Below, piece after piece: positions 47,559-52,979 of a stretch of DNA of 64,000 bases (its first letter is position 1; the number at the start of each line of letters is the position of its first letter). A program made the translations under genes and the position numbers. The DNA is from Nitrospira sp. (GTDB taxonomy: Bacteria > Nitrospirota > Nitrospiria > Nitrospirales > Nitrospiraceae): NCBI GenBank assembly GCA_030123625.1, contig CP126121.1, positions 2,086,179-2,150,178 of the forward strand, read 5' to 3'. The notes below the pieces were generated by a model. That model was not told where the DNA came from. It saw nothing but the letters and a program-made list of their open reading frames with translations, and did not search any database.

Positions 47559-48032
47559 ATGATTAAAGAGAAGGACGATCAGCGGAAAGTCGTCGCCACC
47601 AATCGGAAGGCCTACCACGATTATTTTATCGAAGAAAAGTTCGAGGCTGGGATTGTGCTTAAAGGCACCGAGGTGAAATCACTTCGGGAGAGGCGAGTGA
47701 ACTTGCAAGACAGTTATGCGGGCGTCAAAGAAGGCGAGGCCTTTCTCCATCATTGCCACATCAGTCCGTATAGTCATGGCAACATGATGAACCATGACCC
47801 GATCAGGACCCGCAAATTGCTCCTTCATCGAAAGGAAATCAACAAGCTCCTCGGGAAAACCCAGCAGAAAGGCCTCACGCTGATCCCCCTCCGGATCTAT
47901 TTTTCGGAACGGGGTCAAGCGAAGGTCGAACTTGGATTAGCAAAAGGAAAGAAACAGCATGATCGCCGAGAATCGATCAAGGCTCGAGAAGCCGGACGAG
48001 AAGTGGAACGAGCGATCAAAGAACGAAAGTAG
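47559..48032 (+). CDS. smpB: SsrA-binding protein SmpB
   Basis: 157 residues. Starts with [44 protein letters not shown], and the basic tail [26 protein letters not shown] is typical of SmpB. It binds tmRNA for ribosome rescue. No tmRNA gene is seen in the adjacent 1.7 kb. Confidence 0.96.
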
Positions 48033-48256: not shown

Positions 48257-48340
48257 TTATTCACCGTCAAGGAACACCGACTTATACATAAACCCAAAAA
48301 CAGCGGTCAGCGCGAGCAATGCAAAGAATATCGTCGTCAT
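48257..48340 (-). CDS. 27-aa single-pass membrane micro-protein (S1)
   Basis: Starts ATG at 48340 after GGGGGGTGA and encodes mostly a hydrophobic helix (FFALLALTAVFGFMY), ending with an acidic tail FLDGE. Its promoter-like block lies 26-78 bp upstream. The length and pattern resemble KdpF-type micro-proteins, but no kdp genes are nearby. I consider it a real micro-protein gene because of the shared promoter architecture and ribosome site. Confidence 0.6.
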   Translation of the reverse strand: MTTIFFALLALTAVFGFMYKSVFLDGE

Positions 48341-48365
48341 GGATTTTCACCCCCCTTCACGCGTA

Positions 48366-48418
48366 AGTATACTGCTCGAAAATGAATGGTCGATGATGGC
48401 ATCGTGAAGACATTTTCA
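48366..48418 (-). promoter_or_regulatory. Promoter block A with TTCA boxes, upstream of S1
   Basis: Read on the minus strand: TTCA (48408-48405) and TTCATT (48386-48381) are spaced by 22 bp with a partial intermediate box; after exactly 9 bp comes TATACT (48371-48366). The first TTCA is inside an imperfect palindrome TGAAGACATTTTCA (48405-48418). See blocks B and C. Confidence 0.7.
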
Positions 48419-48804
48419 TAATTCATCAGCCCGCGCTGTCCTGTGGGGAGATTCTGCGTATATGTGTATATTAAGAATTGGTCGTTACAGTTGACCAGTG
48501 AGCCAACGAATGGTTGATTCGTGAAGACCAGTCAAGCAAGGAGGGAGTGTCTAAAAGTGATGCTTCTTATGCAGGGGCTCGTACGATCATGTGAGCAACA
48601 TCGGGTTCCATGAAGCGACAGAACAAGATCCGATCAGGTACGCGCAATGTTGCAGACTATGGCCAACTCTCACAGCAGCATGACTCAGCGGCCGCTCTTT
48701 CCGCTGCAGCGAACCAATCATACAAAGAGATGAGATACCGGCAAGTCAGAGCCGCTATCCCCGACTCCGCTACAATGCATTAATCTACGTCGAATCGTGG
48801 GTCG
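48419..48804. other. Gap between micro-protein units, no gene seen
   Basis: 386 bp without supportable genes on either strand. A GGAGGGAG occurs at about 48540-48547 on the plus strand but no start codon follows at suitable spacing. Confidence 0.4.
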
Positions 48805-48885
48805 TCACCTACTGGCGAGCTGCAACATTGCGTACAACACTCCGAATATGGCGGCTAATAAGAACACTTCGATGAAGGAAACCAT
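48805..48885 (-). CDS. 26-aa membrane micro-protein (S2)
   Basis: ATG at 48885, preceded by GAGGGTGACC. Encodes a hydrophobic helix (MVSFIEVFLLAAIFGVLYAM) and ends LQLASR. It lies just downstream of a truncated duplicate of its own 5' end (48902-48958), and promoter block B lies further upstream. Confidence 0.6.
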   Translation of the reverse strand: MVSFIEVFLLAAIFGVLYAMLQLASR

Positions 48886-48970
48886 GTAAGGTCACCCTCG
48901 GTCATCCTCCCTGCGATTCGAATTCATCGAATAAGAACACTTCGATGAAGGAAACCATGTAAGGTCACCC
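48857..48970. repeat. 41-bp direct repeat (73-bp period) covering the S2 start
   Basis: 48857-48897 and 48930-48970 are identical over 41 bp, containing the ribosome site, ATG and first eight codons of S2. A 32-bp different sequence separates them. This is a partial tandem duplication, creating one complete and one truncated reading frame. Confidence 0.9.
48902..48958 (-). pseudogene. Truncated duplicate of S2 start, 18 codons
   Basis: ATG at 48958 with GGGGGTGACC upstream. Its first nine codons match S2, then it runs into unrelated sequence and stops at TGA. It is likely translated, perhaps as a leader ahead of S2, but carries no membrane helix. Confidence 0.5.
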
Positions 48971-48982
48971 CCTTTGGTCTCC

Positions 48983-49035
48983 TACATACACCTCCAAGAT
49001 GAAGTCTCCATAATGGGATTGTGAAGAGTTCTTCA
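48983..49035 (-). promoter_or_regulatory. Promoter block B with TTCA boxes, upstream of S2 unit
   Basis: Minus strand: TTCA (49025-49022) and TTCATC (49003-48998) are 22 bp apart; after exactly 9 bp comes TATGTA (48988-48983). The palindrome TGAAGAGTTCTTCA (49022-49035) overlaps the first box. It is 64 bp upstream of the first ATG (48958). Confidence 0.7.
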
Positions 49036-49128
49036 TTATTTTGATGCCAAAGTGTGATCTTGGAGGTTGTCTCGACTCCCAGGCATAACGCCTATCAGCC
49101 TAAGCAGTTCTTAATCATGAAGATGTAG

Positions 49129-49209
49129 TCAAAAACCGGCTTCCCTGATCGCCAACAGTATCAATCCAACAAAACTCATGACGAGGACCAGGAGTAAAAT
49201 CGCCATCAT
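49129..49209 (-). CDS. 26-aa membrane micro-protein (S3)
   Basis: ATG at 49209 (or 49206) directly after a perfect GGAGGTGACC plus TATC. The product is one hydrophobic helix, MMAILLLVLVMSFVGLILLA, ending IREAGF. It is 58 bp downstream of S4 and in the same direction, so it is probably cotranscribed with it. KdpF-like by length only. Confidence 0.65.
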   Translation of the reverse strand: MMAILLLVLVMSFVGLILLAIREAGF

Positions 49210-49267
49210 GATAGGTCACCTCCTTCACCGATTCTCGGCATGCTCCTCAAGCATGTTGTTGAAGTTC

Positions 49268-49504
49268 TCAACGCGGTGCAAATACGGGACACCCCGGTAT
49301 AAAGCAAACTTTGCAACGTGTATCTCCTTCACGTGATGCTGTACTATTCTCATCAAATGCCATGAGAGGAACCTTCCGACCAGCGGTCTCGGCTCTGTCA
49401 TGAACCGTTCTTCCGGCCGAGTGCGTCCCCATGATGATCGCTTGTCCTAGTCCCACCATGACGTACGGAAAACACACCATAGAAGCAGTGATTATATTTG
49501 CCAT
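49268..49504 (-). CDS. 78-aa small protein with N-terminal membrane helix (S4)
   Basis: ATG at 49504 with GAAGGAAGGGG upstream. N-terminal hydrophobic stretch ITASMVCFPYVMVGLGQAII, then a hydrophilic part and a Cys pair CKVCFIPGCPVF. It heads a unit with S3 and has promoter block C 35-87 bp upstream. No family recognised. Only the first third may be meaningful. Confidence 0.55.
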   Translation of the reverse strand: MANIITASMVCFPYVMVGLGQAIIMGTHSAGRTVHDRAETAGRKVPLMAFDENSTASREGDTRCKVCFIPGCPVFAPR

Positions 49505-49538
49505 GCATGCCCCTTCCTTCTTAAGCTAATTAGCAAGG

Positions 49539-49591
49539 AGCATAACCGGCTGATATGAAGTCATGATGAAATCATGGTGAAGAGCTCTTCA
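49539..49591 (-). promoter_or_regulatory. Promoter block C with three TTCA boxes, upstream of S4-S3
   Basis: Minus strand: three TTCA boxes (49581-49578, 49570-49567, 49559-49556) spaced by exactly 11 bp, with a repeat-like unit TTCAtNATGAN. After a 9-bp gap from TTCATA, TATGCT occurs (49544-49539). A perfect palindrome TGAAGAGCTCTTCA (49578-49591) overlaps the first box. 11-bp direct repeats are typical of OmpR/PhoB-family sites. Confidence 0.75.
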
Positions 49592-49768
49592 TTCTCCCGT
49601 GAGAATCACAGCTGCTGGATATTCCATGTGGCGACAATGAGCAGCCGTGGCGGTCATCATCGGCATGATGCTAACCTATTGGGAATTATTTCGCGCCGGT
49701 TCGGTCGTGTGAGTTTTGTGCGGCGAACGCCGTCGTTAAACAGGAGAGCCAAAGTAGTTTGAAAGCCG

Positions 49769-51205
49769 CTAGGCGGGAGTCATTTGCTGAGAGAGAGCCG
49801 GCAAACGTAGGGTGAAGACGGAGCCTTTGTTGACTTCGCTTGTGACGGAAATGCTCCCGCCGTGGGCATCCATGATTTCTTTCACAATGGGCAATCCAAG
49901 GCCGGTACCGGCGGAGTCTTTCGCTCGGGCCCAATCGGTGCGGTAGAATCGCTCAAACAGATGGGGAATATGCTCCGGCTCGATTCCATGGCCCGTGTCC
50001 TCCACCGCCACTGCAATCTCGTGTCCGGTCGCCTGTAGGCGAACCGTGACGGAACCGCCGGCCGGTGTGTACCGTAGCGCGTTATCGAGCAGATTGATCA
50101 GTGCTTGTTTGAGCCATTGCGCATCACCAAGAACGGATGGAACGGGTTGACATTCGAACGCTAGGGTGATCTGGCGGTCATCCGCCAAAAGGATCAACTC
50201 ATCCACGATCTCTTGAATCAGCGGTTCCAAGGCGAGCGGGACGAGATTGACGGGCGGCTTGCTACTGGTGAATTTCGCGAGGGTCAACAGTGGACGCGTC
50301 AAGGCGATGAGCCGATCCACTTGCTGGAGGTTGTTGAGCAACACTTCGCGATATTCTTCGACGGTCCTCGCTTTCATGAGTGCGACCTCCAGGTTGCCCT
50401 GCAGGATGGTCAGGGGGGTCCTCATCTCATGAGCGGCGATCTCGCAGAAGTTCCGTTGGACCTCGCTACCTCGCTGGAACTGATCCAATACCGAGTTGAC
50501 TGCCTGAGTAAGTCGTCGAAATTCTCGATAGGGTGAATCCATCGGCAGACGCTTCCCAAGGTCGGCTTCCGACATGGTTTCAGCGCCCGTACACAAAGCC
50601 TCGATCGGGGCCATTACTTTCTTTGCCAGCCAGAGGCTCCCGACCCAGGCCAGGATAAGAGTGGCCCCGGATCCGAGGGTGAGCAGGAACACAAGGCCAT
50701 ACAAGGTTTCCTGATAATGCAGCAACGAAGTTTCGGCCTGCAAGATGTACTGCGCACGACCCTTGCCGAGGAGATAGAGAAATACATGCCGCGCTGGCGT
50801 CCCATCAGGAGCCATGAGTGTCTCGAACAGGATATTTTTGAGACGGACCTGTTCCAACACGCGAGCAGGGAGCGATCCTTGCACAGTTGCGTGAGGACTT
50901 CTCCACAAGAGCGAGCCGTCGGTTGAAAAGACACGGAGGGCGTGGGTCACGTCGGGCAGTACGTGCTGTTCTGTTGTGTCTTGGGTCAACTCGTTGGTCG
51001 GGGGAGGGTCCTTGCCGCCGTGTTCAAAGAACTCGGGATACCGCTCGACAAACTCGGCCAGTGTTTCCGCCAACACCAGGAGTCGCCCATCCACTAATCG
51101 TTGTAACAAAACCTCGCTGGCGGCGTATACGAGCGCAGAGAACGCGAGAAGACCGGCCATCAACACGAAGGCTGACCAGCTGATCAAGGTTCGCAGGGAT
51201 TTCAT
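49769..51205 (-). CDS. Sensor histidine kinase of the micro-protein locus
   Basis: 478 residues. Two transmembrane segments (about 8-30 and 170-195) frame a periplasmic domain, followed by HAMP, a HisKA domain with AHEMRTPLTILQGNLEVAL (phospho-His), and a HATPase domain with NLLDNALRYT, DTGHGIEP and GTGLGLPIVKEIM. It overlaps the regulator gene by 4 nt (ATGA). It resembles CusS/heavy-metal type kinases. The ligand is unknown. Confidence 0.93.
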   Translation of the reverse strand: MKSLRTLISWSAFVLMAGLLAFSALVYAASEVLLQRLVDGRLLVLAETLAEFVERYPEFFEHGGKDPPPTNELTQDTTEQHVLPDVTHALRVFSTDGSLLWRSPHATVQGSLPARVLEQVRLKNILFETLMAPDGTPARHVFLYLLGKGRAQYILQAETSLLHYQETLYGLVFLLTLGSGATLILAWVGSLWLAKKVMAPIEALCTGAETMSEADLGKRLPMDSPYREFRRLTQAVNSVLDQFQRGSEVQRNFCEIAAHEMRTPLTILQGNLEVALMKARTVEEYREVLLNNLQQVDRLIALTRPLLTLAKFTSSKPPVNLVPLALEPLIQEIVDELILLADDRQITLAFECQPVPSVLGDAQWLKQALINLLDNALRYTPAGGSVTVRLQATGHEIAVAVEDTGHGIEPEHIPHLFERFYRTDWARAKDSAGTGLGLPIVKEIMDAHGGSISVTSEVNKGSVFTLRLPALSQQMTPA

Positions 51206-51885
51206 GCGGAGGCATCCGGCTCTTCGAGCATATATCCGGCGCCACGCACCGTGGCGATCAAAGGCGGCGAAAAGTCCCGGTCGATCTTCGCACGGAGGGC
51301 TCGAATGTGGGCATCGACGATATTCGTCATGGGATCATAACTGATGTCCCACACATGCTCGATGATTGCCGTTCGGGTAAGCACGCGATTCTTGTTTCGA
51401 AGTAGGAATTCGAGCAGGGCATATTCTTTATTCGTCAGAGAGATTTCCTGCCCTGCGCGCCAGACACGGTGGGAAGCCGGGTCTAACCGAAGGTCGGCCG
51501 CCTGAAGATGGGCGATTTGCTGGGAGCTGCCGCGGCGCAAGAGCGCCCTGATTCGTGCCAGCAATTCCGCGAAGGCGAACGGCTTCGGCAAAAACTGATC
51601 CGCGCCGGTATCAAAGCCGGAGACCTTCGTCTCCAAATTGTTTCGCGCGGTCAGTAGCAACACTGGAGTGGAGATGCCTTTGTCACGAACGCGGCGGCAG
51701 AGGGTCAGGCCGTCGAGCTTGGGTAACATGATGTCCAGGATCATCAGATCATAGGAATTGTCCAGAGCCAACGCCAAGCCGGCTTCTCCGTCGGCGGCGA
51801 CGTCCACCACATAGTGCTCTTCCTTCAACCCTTTTCTGATGAATTGCGCAAGGTCCGCATCATCTTCAACGAGCAGAATTCTCAT
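51202..51885 (-). CDS. OmpR-family response regulator of the micro-protein locus
   Basis: 227 residues. The receiver domain has LLVEDDADLA, DLMILDIMLPKLDGL (phospho-Asp) and DQFLPKPF; the winged-helix domain has SLTNKEYALLEFLLRNKNRVLTR and GAGYMLEEP. This is the best candidate to bind the 11-bp TTCA repeats at 48366-49591 because they lie next door and this family recognises such repeats. That link is inference. Confidence 0.93.
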   Translation of the reverse strand: MRILLVEDDADLAQFIRKGLKEEHYVVDVAADGEAGLALALDNSYDLMILDIMLPKLDGLTLCRRVRDKGISTPVLLLTARNNLETKVSGFDTGADQFLPKPFAFAELLARIRALLRRGSSQQIAHLQAADLRLDPASHRVWRAGQEISLTNKEYALLEFLLRNKNRVLTRTAIIEHVWDISYDPMTNIVDAHIRALRAKIDRDFSPPLIATVRGAGYMLEEPDASA

Positions 51886-51924: not shown

Positions 51925-52542
51925 TCAACAGAGACTACCCTTACAATCTGTGACCACCAGATTCATTGCTTTTTCGTCAGCATCGAGATCAATGGTCAGC
52001 CAGGCTATTCCCATCACTCGCTCATCCTGGCGGGCTCCACCGCTCCCCTCAAGGGGACTGACAACATAATAGCGGCCGGCCGGAACTTTCGTGAACCAAA
52101 AGTGGCCGGTTGGATTGGCCCTAGTCGTGCGGAGATAGGGAATAAGGCGCTTGTCGGCCAGCAGTTGGGCTATGACCGTGCGGAGGCATTCCGCAGACGA
52201 CTCCTGAGCCACTGGGGATTCTGAAGACGAGGCCCCATTTTTTAAAGGGCAGGAGTAATCCCGCACATTTCTGTCGAACCAATAGCGAGTATATGAAACA
52301 ATTGGAATCAAATAGATTGAAGCTCCGGCCTGAGTCACGGCTTTTCCAGAGGTTGCGCGCAAGAACACCTGGCCAGCCGCACTGCTCCGACCTTTAGCCC
52401 GGTAGGCGAAGAGCTCTTTTTCGTTGAAGATCGGTGAGATCGATGAACCCAATGCCGCCGCCTGTGCCGATACCACGTGGAAGCTGCTGATCAGCAGTAG
52501 ACAGATGAAGCAGCACCGGAGTTGCTTGCCACGCCGCGTCAT
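51925..52542 (-). CDS. Exported protein, transthyretin-like fold possible
   Basis: 205 residues. An N-terminal signal peptide (CFICLLLISSFHVVSAQA) is followed by an internal region with GQVFLRATSGKAVTQAGASIYLIP and ANPTGHFWFTKVPAGRYYVVSP, resembling carboxypeptidase-regulatory/transthyretin-like beta-sandwich domains. It ends with CKGSLC. The ATG overlaps the stop of the FTR gene (ATGA), so the two are coupled. Confidence 0.7.
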   Translation of the reverse strand: MTRRGKQLRCCFICLLLISSFHVVSAQAAALGSSISPIFNEKELFAYRAKGRSSAAGQVFLRATSGKAVTQAGASIYLIPIVSYTRYWFDRNVRDYSCPLKNGASSSESPVAQESSAECLRTVIAQLLADKRLIPYLRTTRANPTGHFWFTKVPAGRYYVVSPLEGSGGARQDERVMGIAWLTIDLDADEKAMNLVVTDCKGSLC

Positions 52543-52979
52543 GTCGAGGAGGCTGACGTCGCCGTGGGCTCGCCGGGTACGGTTGCAGTTGGGACGGCCT
52601 TGTGTTTGAGGGCGCGACCTTTGTCGGGAGTCGGATCGGTGACCACGCCATACACTTCGCGCCCTTCATGGCCGTCCGGCAAATATTCCGTAATCGGCAT
52701 TCCATCTTCGCGGACAAAAAGGAGACAATGACAGTATTTGTAGATCTGCATTTCGTCGCATGCGCAGATCCACCGCCGGAGCTTGGCTTCGGCTTCTTTG
52801 TCCTTATAGAAGTTACAAGGGCAGAGCGGTTTCCCGAGTTCGTCGATATGAGACGCTAATCCCTTGACCACTGCCTCGGTTACAGCGGTATTGGGATGCA
52901 TCGCGGTTCCGCTTTTCTCGGCAAAACCCTGTACGAACTTCCGGATTTTATCGAGACTTTCCTGCGTTGGTTCGGCCAT
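52539..52979 (-). CDS. Ferredoxin:thioredoxin reductase catalytic chain
   Basis: 146 residues. Cysteines follow exactly CPC-x16-CxC-x8-CHC, the pattern of FTR catalytic subunits that use a 4Fe-4S cluster to reduce thioredoxin with ferredoxin electrons. There is an N-terminal helix and a proline/threonine-rich tail of unknown role. No partner variable chain is seen here. Might feed reducing power from ferredoxin into redox regulation. Confidence 0.85.
   Translation of the reverse strand: MAEPTQESLDKIRKFVQGFAEKSGTAMHPNTAVTEAVVKGLASHIDELGKPLCPCNFYKDKEAEAKLRRWICACDEMQIYKYCHCLLFVREDGMPITEYLPDGHEGREVYGVVTDPTPDKGRALKHKAVPTATVPGEPTATSASST

Follow-up and report, generated by a model that had tools for sequence, protein, structure and literature searches.

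Pho boxes stand at a 10-bp distance from the -10 hexamer. In E. coli they are built of 11-nt direct-repeat half-sites (PMC4415409). The sigmaE regulon table of E. coli lists yeaY, which is of the Slp type (PMC2731931); and MgrB is a small membrane protein within a two-component (PhoQ/PhoP) regulon (PMC8404706). Among ammonia oxidizers, AmoC3 of Nitrosomonas is stress-controlled through an alternative sigma factor, given as sigma32 in a review that also reports a non-operonal amoC in all comammox genomes (PMC6311188). In the papers searched we found no description of how this comammox stand-alone amoC is regulated. A preliminary description of the DNA studied here knew of no described system of its kind. 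The promoter geometry is the known one of the E. coli pho boxes; it is the regulon itself, including the micro-proteins in it and the connection with ammonia oxidation, for which we found no earlier description in the open-access papers searched.

We analyzed a 64-kb stretch (the window; positions 2086179-2150178) of the 4.69-Mb genome of a Nitrospira sp., in which small membrane-protein genes and their promoter blocks lie between smpB and a two-component system (Table 1). We consider it probable that this locus belongs to a Nitrospirales two-component system for membrane/envelope stress. Its output would be mostly membrane micro-proteins, joined by Slp lipoproteins, by a PAS kinase and, in comammox members, by a spare AmoC; judged from sequence, it may best be read as a Cpx-like system with pho-box geometry. 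A 1.4-kb region of the locus, used as a DNA query, gave matches in 45 of the 79 genomes of the genus. The usual gene order in relatives is p46435 - p47003 - smpB - micro-protein genes - kinase - regulator - two conserved genes - p53086; in two relatives (G033 and G077) a stand-alone amoC with its own box is inserted within the locus. The two conserved genes (205 and 146 aa) are syntenic with the regulator at most of the genus loci inspected and probably form one operon with it; the 205-aa protein shows just sub-threshold similarity to SdrD_B and carboxypeptidase-regulatory-like domains.

Table 1. Features of the locus in the window, and targets in the same genome that follow a box carrying the ATGAAGA arm (kb and Mb positions refer to the whole genome).
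Feature	Position	Strand	Description	Basis or remark
smpB	47559..48032	+	Fixed flank on the other side of the locus	Named from sequence; syntenic beside the micro-protein genes
P27	48257..48340	-	Single-helix micro-protein, 27 aa, MTTIFFALLALTAVFGFMYKSVFLDGE	Ribosome site GGGGGGTGA
Promoter block A	48366..48419	-	ATGAA arm, TTCAC, ATCAT, TTCAT, N10, TATACT; serves the 27-aa gene	Weight matrix, spacing, kept in relatives
P26a	48805..48885	-	Single-helix micro-protein, 26 aa, MVSFIEVFLLAAIFGVLYAMLQLASR	
Truncated P26a duplicate	48902..48958	-	MVSFIEVFLFDEFESQGG followed by a stop, 18 aa	Belongs to the 41-nt direct repeat
Promoter block B	48983..49036	-	ATGAAGA arm, TTCAC, ATTAT, TTCAT, N10, TATGTA; serves the 26-aa gene	Weight matrix, P26a loci of relatives
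P26b	49129..49209	-	Micro-protein, 26 aa, MMAILLLVLVMSFVGLILLAIREAGF; downstream of P78	Strong ribosome site AAGGAGGTGA
P78	49268..49504	-	78 aa; hydrophobic N-terminus, C-terminal CKVCFIPGC-VFAPR	
Promoter block C	49539..49592	-	ATGAAGA arm, three perfect TTCAY repeats, N10, TATGCT; serves the P78-P26b unit	Weight matrix
Sensor histidine kinase	49769..51205	-	Two helices flanking a PAS/PDC-like extracytoplasmic domain, HAMP, HisKA, HATPase	
OmpR/PhoB-family response regulator	51202..51885	-	Predicted binder of the TTCAT boxes	
Two conserved genes	51925..52979	-	Products of 205 and 146 aa; on the upstream side of the regulator gene	
Targets in the window			P27, P26a, P78	
Target	70 kb		Dead P27-like copy, then Slp lipoprotein gene	
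Target	0.48 Mb		Multi-PAS kinase	
Target	997 kb		29-aa protein MDANWLTFGAAILGLVVAAAFVYKKGQQP	
Target	1.17 Mb		38-aa ORF and divergent amoC	
Target	1.25 Mb		Further lipoprotein-like gene	
Target	1.26 Mb		Second Slp lipoprotein	
Target	1.657 Mb		217-aa membrane protein	Box 757 nt ahead of an amoC of the amo cluster

The preliminary description had pointed to three minus-strand blocks of a shared layout, with 22 bp between a first TTCA and a TTCAT and with a palindrome at the first TTCA, and all of this is present (first TTCA at 48408 in block A, 49025 in block B, and 49581 in block C). The gap between the last TTCAT and the -10 hexamer, claimed to be 9 bp, measures 10 bp in each of the blocks. 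The additional repeat in 11-bp phase, mentioned for block C only, is found there but also in phase in block A (ATCAT) and, degenerate, in block B (ATTAT), which makes every block a triple repeat. The distance from block to ATG had been given as 64-74 bp; measured from the first TTCA it is 68 bp in A, 67 bp in B and 77 bp in C, and the ATG behind block B is the one that opens the 18-aa truncated duplicate, the intact 26-aa gene lying another 73 bp on, at 140 bp from the first TTCA of block B, with a ribosome site of its own.

A weight matrix of 54 columns, built on 75 distinct sites of the genus, gives the box consensus ATGAAGANNTCTTCAY-N6-WTCAY-N6-TTCAT-N10-TANNNT. With this matrix the window holds exactly three copies of the box, scoring 64.0 (A), 40.1 (B) and 49.1 bits (C), with the runner-up position at -4.5 bits and a top score of 9.2 bits in 20 shuffles; the three sites belong to the training set, so their scores are somewhat flattered, which does not affect the gap to the runner-up. 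All 75 profiled sites have a spacing of 10 to the -10 hexamer, the search having permitted 9 or 10; and the ATGAAGA arm, although absent from the search pattern, is conserved, with roughly 70-90% agreement at every one of the seven positions. The profiled sites show no TTGACA-like hexamer 17 bp upstream of the -10; the third TTCAT ends 10 bp upstream of the -10, and the second sits roughly at the location of a -35 element. The box thus has the features of a class-II pho-box-type promoter, namely 11-bp repeats, the final one 10 bp before the -10, and no -35 hexamer.

Absence of the blocks from relatives had been named beforehand as an outcome that would speak against the proposal; they are conserved in both the genus and the order. 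The loose pattern of the preliminary description finds 8 sites in the 4.69-Mb genome (0 for reversed controls), and a stricter version confined to the core (TTCAY-N6-WTCAY-N6-TTCAY-N9/10-TANNNT) has matches in 42 of 79 genomes of the genus and in 94 of 236 Nitrospirales genomes, with 0 occurrences of the reversed pattern in either set. Reversed-pattern controls and shuffles together rule out a chance origin of the motif. A relaxed box (40-62 bits) stands at all 17 rescanned P26a-type loci, mostly in genomes that lack a strict site.

The box is not a trait of the genus only, as it occurs elsewhere in the order and in other classes of the Nitrospirota. In the stretches of these other classes that were examined, the core box precedes the genes of two PDZ proteases of the HtrA type, of two proteins weakly similar to Metal_resist (PF13801), and of other periplasmic proteins; the boxes there lack the ATGAAGA arm, and there is no close regulator homologue beside them. 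At five such loci (L309, L311, L313, L316, and L318) the TTCAT box, without an ATGAA arm, is often a longer array. The TTCAT box is possibly a phylum-wide envelope-stress box.

The small frames of 27, 26, 26, and 78 aa exist at the lengths first reported. The strong GGxGGTGAcc-type ribosome sites ascribed to them are found for the three shortest (GGGTGA/AGGAGGTGA-type), while the 78-aa gene has AAGGAAGGGG instead. For P26a, dN/dS is 0.20 over 38 distinct homologous genes; its paralogues lie at unlinked loci, each with its own box, and the block at the P26a loci of relatives corresponds to block B. P27, kept in many members of the genus, has a dN/dS of 0.23 in a small sample (5 sequences); P78, with homologues at at least eight loci and 22 invariant columns, has a dN/dS of 0.36, likewise in a small sample (4 sequences). 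P26b is the weakest of the four, recognizable by sequence in just three relatives (59-64% identity). Purifying selection at the protein level on three of the four (P26a, P27, and P78, the latter two from small samples) suggests that these three are translated, as the preliminary description had supposed. An ORF led by a Shine-Dalgarno sequence and containing a transmembrane helix lies 50-180 nt downstream of 69 of 135 distinct sites, as against 1 of 135 when the opposite strand is read and 3.8% for random positions by the same criterion; this count is biased, since some of the loci were retrieved through similarity to the micro-genes, and the motif-only subset gives the less biased figure of 12 of 41 vs 0 of 41. 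The four micro-proteins of the window have no Pfam or NCBIfam match at E 1, a PHROGs search with them returned insignificant matches alone, and a P26a profile matched nothing among solved structures.

Copying is evident for some of the modules. The start of the 26-aa gene is duplicated in a perfect direct repeat of 41 nt, spaced by 73 bp (48857-48970), the first copy being broken in frame after 18 codons; the duplicated segment is absent from relatives (query 712-754 unmatched). At 70 kb (L120:3033-3878), a P27-type promoter and a degenerate P27 frame stand upstream of the Slp lipoprotein gene, which suggests that the promoter spread through copying of promoter/micro-gene modules. A 13-nt perfect inverted repeat, CGCAATGTTGCAG, combines an arm within the 26-aa gene with a second arm some 170 bp downstream (48643-48655 / 48820-48832). 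The dead P27-like copy with its promoter and the truncated P26a duplicate, together with the shortness of the transcripts, would fit micro-genes that go untranslated, their promoters driving small RNAs or being a by-product of spreading repeat modules. Non-translation is rejected by the dN/dS values of the 38 distinct P26a genes and of P27, and ribosome sites and ATG distances are maintained, while in other genera unrelated sequences of like form follow the box; we regard the untranslated reading as highly improbable. The C-terminal tail of the P78 type (CKVCFIPGC-VFAPR, C-x2-C-x5-C) is conserved, being lost in one paralogue (L128), and is possibly a metal or redox site.

A regulon of membrane micro-proteins, as first proposed, is right but incomplete, for the box is likewise found in front of a PAS kinase gene, a divergent amoC, genes for Slp lipoproteins, and others (Table 1). 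At least eight families of single-helix proteins of 26-80 aa are among the targets: further families follow the box in relatives within the genus (MAVIVLGAIGATLLFGVLYKALSAGSE, MPALIILGLAVTVILGIGYKVFSMEEE, and MIALMVGVLAGSVVLVAMYSALVYTVSQASKK), and box-led micro-proteins of other genera include MKQILTLAPALLLMVVVMAAIGSMVFWGLSLLDLSE, MSDIFGPAVLLTLLLVAMAALVWWGMSLLA, and MFNPALVLGAWTVVLLGIAMWAMATREGED, among others. The envelope proteins behind the box are Slp lipoproteins and PepSY proteins in the Nitrospirales, the HtrA and Metal_resist types being confined to the other classes. Slp lipoproteins, PepSY, the spare AmoC, and HtrA behind the core box elsewhere argue for a response to envelope or membrane stress; the PAS kinase among the targets is by itself no sign of stress.

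The box is present at all five divergent stand-alone amoC genes examined, whose products form a group of their own, 89-92% identical to the copy in the genome of the window and 84-88% identical to operon-type copies. None of the operon-type amoC genes examined has a box directly in front, the only one nearby being the 1.657-Mb box, which lies 757 nt upstream across the 217-aa gene. The stand-alone gene resembles amoC3: it is divergent, lies apart from the amoCAB operon, and has a promoter other than that of the operon. The 217-aa membrane protein (L236:1655-2305, minus strand, about 1656.7-1657.4 kb of the genome) has no Pfam match and a 45.7-bit box ahead of it; its gene directly precedes an amoC of the amo cluster, beside an FtsH-like gene. 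Another divergent kind of AmoC (L239:1372 and L240:1519) has a WYHNM N-terminus and 78% identity to the box-bearing kind. One could go further and suppose that in comammox organisms the regulator serves to rebuild ammonia monooxygenase and the membrane under stress, with AmoC and single-helix micro-subunits stabilizing or replacing parts of AMO or of respiratory complexes, so that a toolkit of micro-proteins found order-wide would have been turned to ammonia oxidation; we think this rather unlikely.

The regulator next door, described beforehand as OmpR/PhoB-type, does carry the domains of that family, a receiver (Response_reg, PF00072, E 7.6e-29) and a C-terminal winged helix (Trans_reg_C, PF00486, E 4.7e-27), and the kinase gene overlaps the end of its gene. 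The extracytoplasmic domain of the kinase was modelled as a PAS/PDC-like fold (best match KinD, WalK also), an assignment to be read with an only fair pLDDT of 74. Identity of the regulator is 81-100% in most of the genus and 64-88% in the remaining order, and some genera have at least two paralogous regulator groups. The preliminary description proposed looking for co-occurrence of box and regulator, and among 236 genomes of the order, with boxes counted by the strict core pattern, 84 have both, 10 the box alone, 42 the regulator alone, and 100 neither (Fisher P ∼6e-21, odds ratio 20; the statistic ignores shared ancestry). Outside the genus, 26 of the 48 sites listed lie within 5 kb of the regulator, vs 0.13 expected with shared ancestry ignored; boxes closer than 5 kb are found in 20 of 28 non-genus genomes, and in the set counted this adjacency spans two families of the order. 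In three genera (g15, g16, and g17) boxes stand immediately upstream of the regulator operon, so that the regulator itself is sometimes a box target. No box lies ahead of the 146-aa, 205-aa or regulator genes in the window, which rejects autoregulation there, and autoregulation is therefore not general. Within the genus the regulator tracks amoC (52/5/8/14, P 2e-6, again ignoring shared ancestry).

Because of this co-occurrence, the placement of boxes near the regulator, and the boxes ahead of the operon in g15-g17, the sequence comparisons point to the boxes belonging to this regulator family. The boxes might instead be bound by a different OmpR/PhoB-family regulator, for example a true PhoB, with the neighboring pair a bystander. 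The TTCAT half-site and the geometry are indeed reminiscent of pho boxes, another gene of the genome, at 1080059, matches PhoB better (242 bits, likewise below the cut-off, vs 190.8 for the window regulator, whose identity as PhoB by TIGR02154 is rejected at a cut-off of 296.2), and in 10 box-positive genomes, several of them incomplete drafts, the regulator was not detected; set against this are the clustering of non-genus boxes beside this regulator in two families, the g15-g17 boxes, and the absence of phosphate-uptake genes among the targets examined, and we judge another binder to be quite unlikely.

The main rival to envelope stress is a copper-specific response, or more broadly a response to metals (copper, silver or zinc, of the Cop/Cus/Czc type) in which the micro-proteins and AmoC would take part in copper homeostasis. 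In its favor, AMO itself uses copper, a C-x2-C-x5-C motif closes P78, the box of other classes is followed by Metal_resist-type proteins, and the named families nearest to the regulator and the kinase are the heavy-metal families TIGR01387 and TIGR01386. Both proteins nevertheless fall under the curated cut-offs (261.3 vs 279.2 for the regulator and 248.4 vs 292.55 for the kinase), so identity as a heavy-metal pair is rejected; the invariant residues of the sensor domain include no His or Cys, and Met solely at the start, and so show no metal-ligand signature; and no P-type ATPase, CusCBA set or other metal-efflux gene was recognized among the targets examined, save the start of one RND-type transporter in another genus (L284). 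A metal response therefore appears unlikely, and we retain the envelope-stress reading.

In the mechanism that we propose for envelope stress, the kinase would monitor the membrane or the periplasm by means of its PAS-like extracytoplasmic domain and phosphorylate the regulator, which would bind the TTCAT half-sites at 11-bp spacing on a single face of the DNA and also contact the inverted ATGAA half-site lying another 11 bp upstream. Ending 10 bp before the -10 hexamer, the last TTCAT would substitute for the -35 element as with PhoB; and because the layout is that of pho boxes, tandem regulator dimers most likely recruit RNA polymerase directly. The products induced in this way would comprise the single-helix proteins (26-78 aa), outer-membrane lipoproteins of the Slp type, the PAS kinase and, in comammox, the divergent stand-alone AmoC. 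The micro-proteins most likely reside in the inner membrane, where, under stress, they would stabilize or adjust membrane complexes. The architecture of the promoter, its conservation, the targets, the association with the regulator, and the protein-level selection on the micro-genes are computational results; that the regulator binds the boxes and activates rather than represses, that the signal is stress, and what the micro-proteins do are inferred.

Comammox and other Nitrospirales thereby gain a testable regulon, with a single regulator, a box for which any genome can be scanned, and a list of targets, in which the stand-alone amoC has a promoter in common with micro-proteins and stress-type lipoproteins. 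At least eight families of membrane proteins of 26-80 aa are added, which lie below the usual size of annotation and can be found by their promoter, with selection seen in those tested; the box therefore offers a route into the small proteins of uncultured lineages.

Compared with known systems, the regulator and kinase are likest to CopR/CusR and CopS/CusS, their top-scoring named families, from which they differ in scores below the cut-offs, in a sensor lacking the metal-ligand signature, and in other boxes and targets. As with MgrB, small membrane proteins would be under two-component control; MgrB, however, has 47 aa and feeds back on PhoQ, whereas here there are many families of 26-39 aa. 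AmoC3 of Nitrosomonas europaea offers the parallel of a divergent stand-alone amoC with stress control, predicted in our case, but is governed by a sigma factor, where here a box of two-component type is common to amoC and the micro-proteins. Likeness to the Cpx, Bae, and sigmaE systems lies in the PAS-like extracytoplasmic sensor fold, the Slp-type lipoprotein targets, and HtrA under the same box elsewhere; the box is unlike the CpxR site, and many of the Nitrospirales targets are lineage-specific micro-proteins. With PhoB and its pho boxes the system shares 11-nt repeats, a regulator of one structural family, and an activator site replacing the -35 element, although the target genes are others and the regulator scores far under the PhoB cut-off. 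The half-site here is TTCAT and theirs TGTCA, and here three direct repeats are joined by an inverted fourth arm: it is in this ATGAA arm, placed another helical turn upstream, that the box departs from the pho-box layout.
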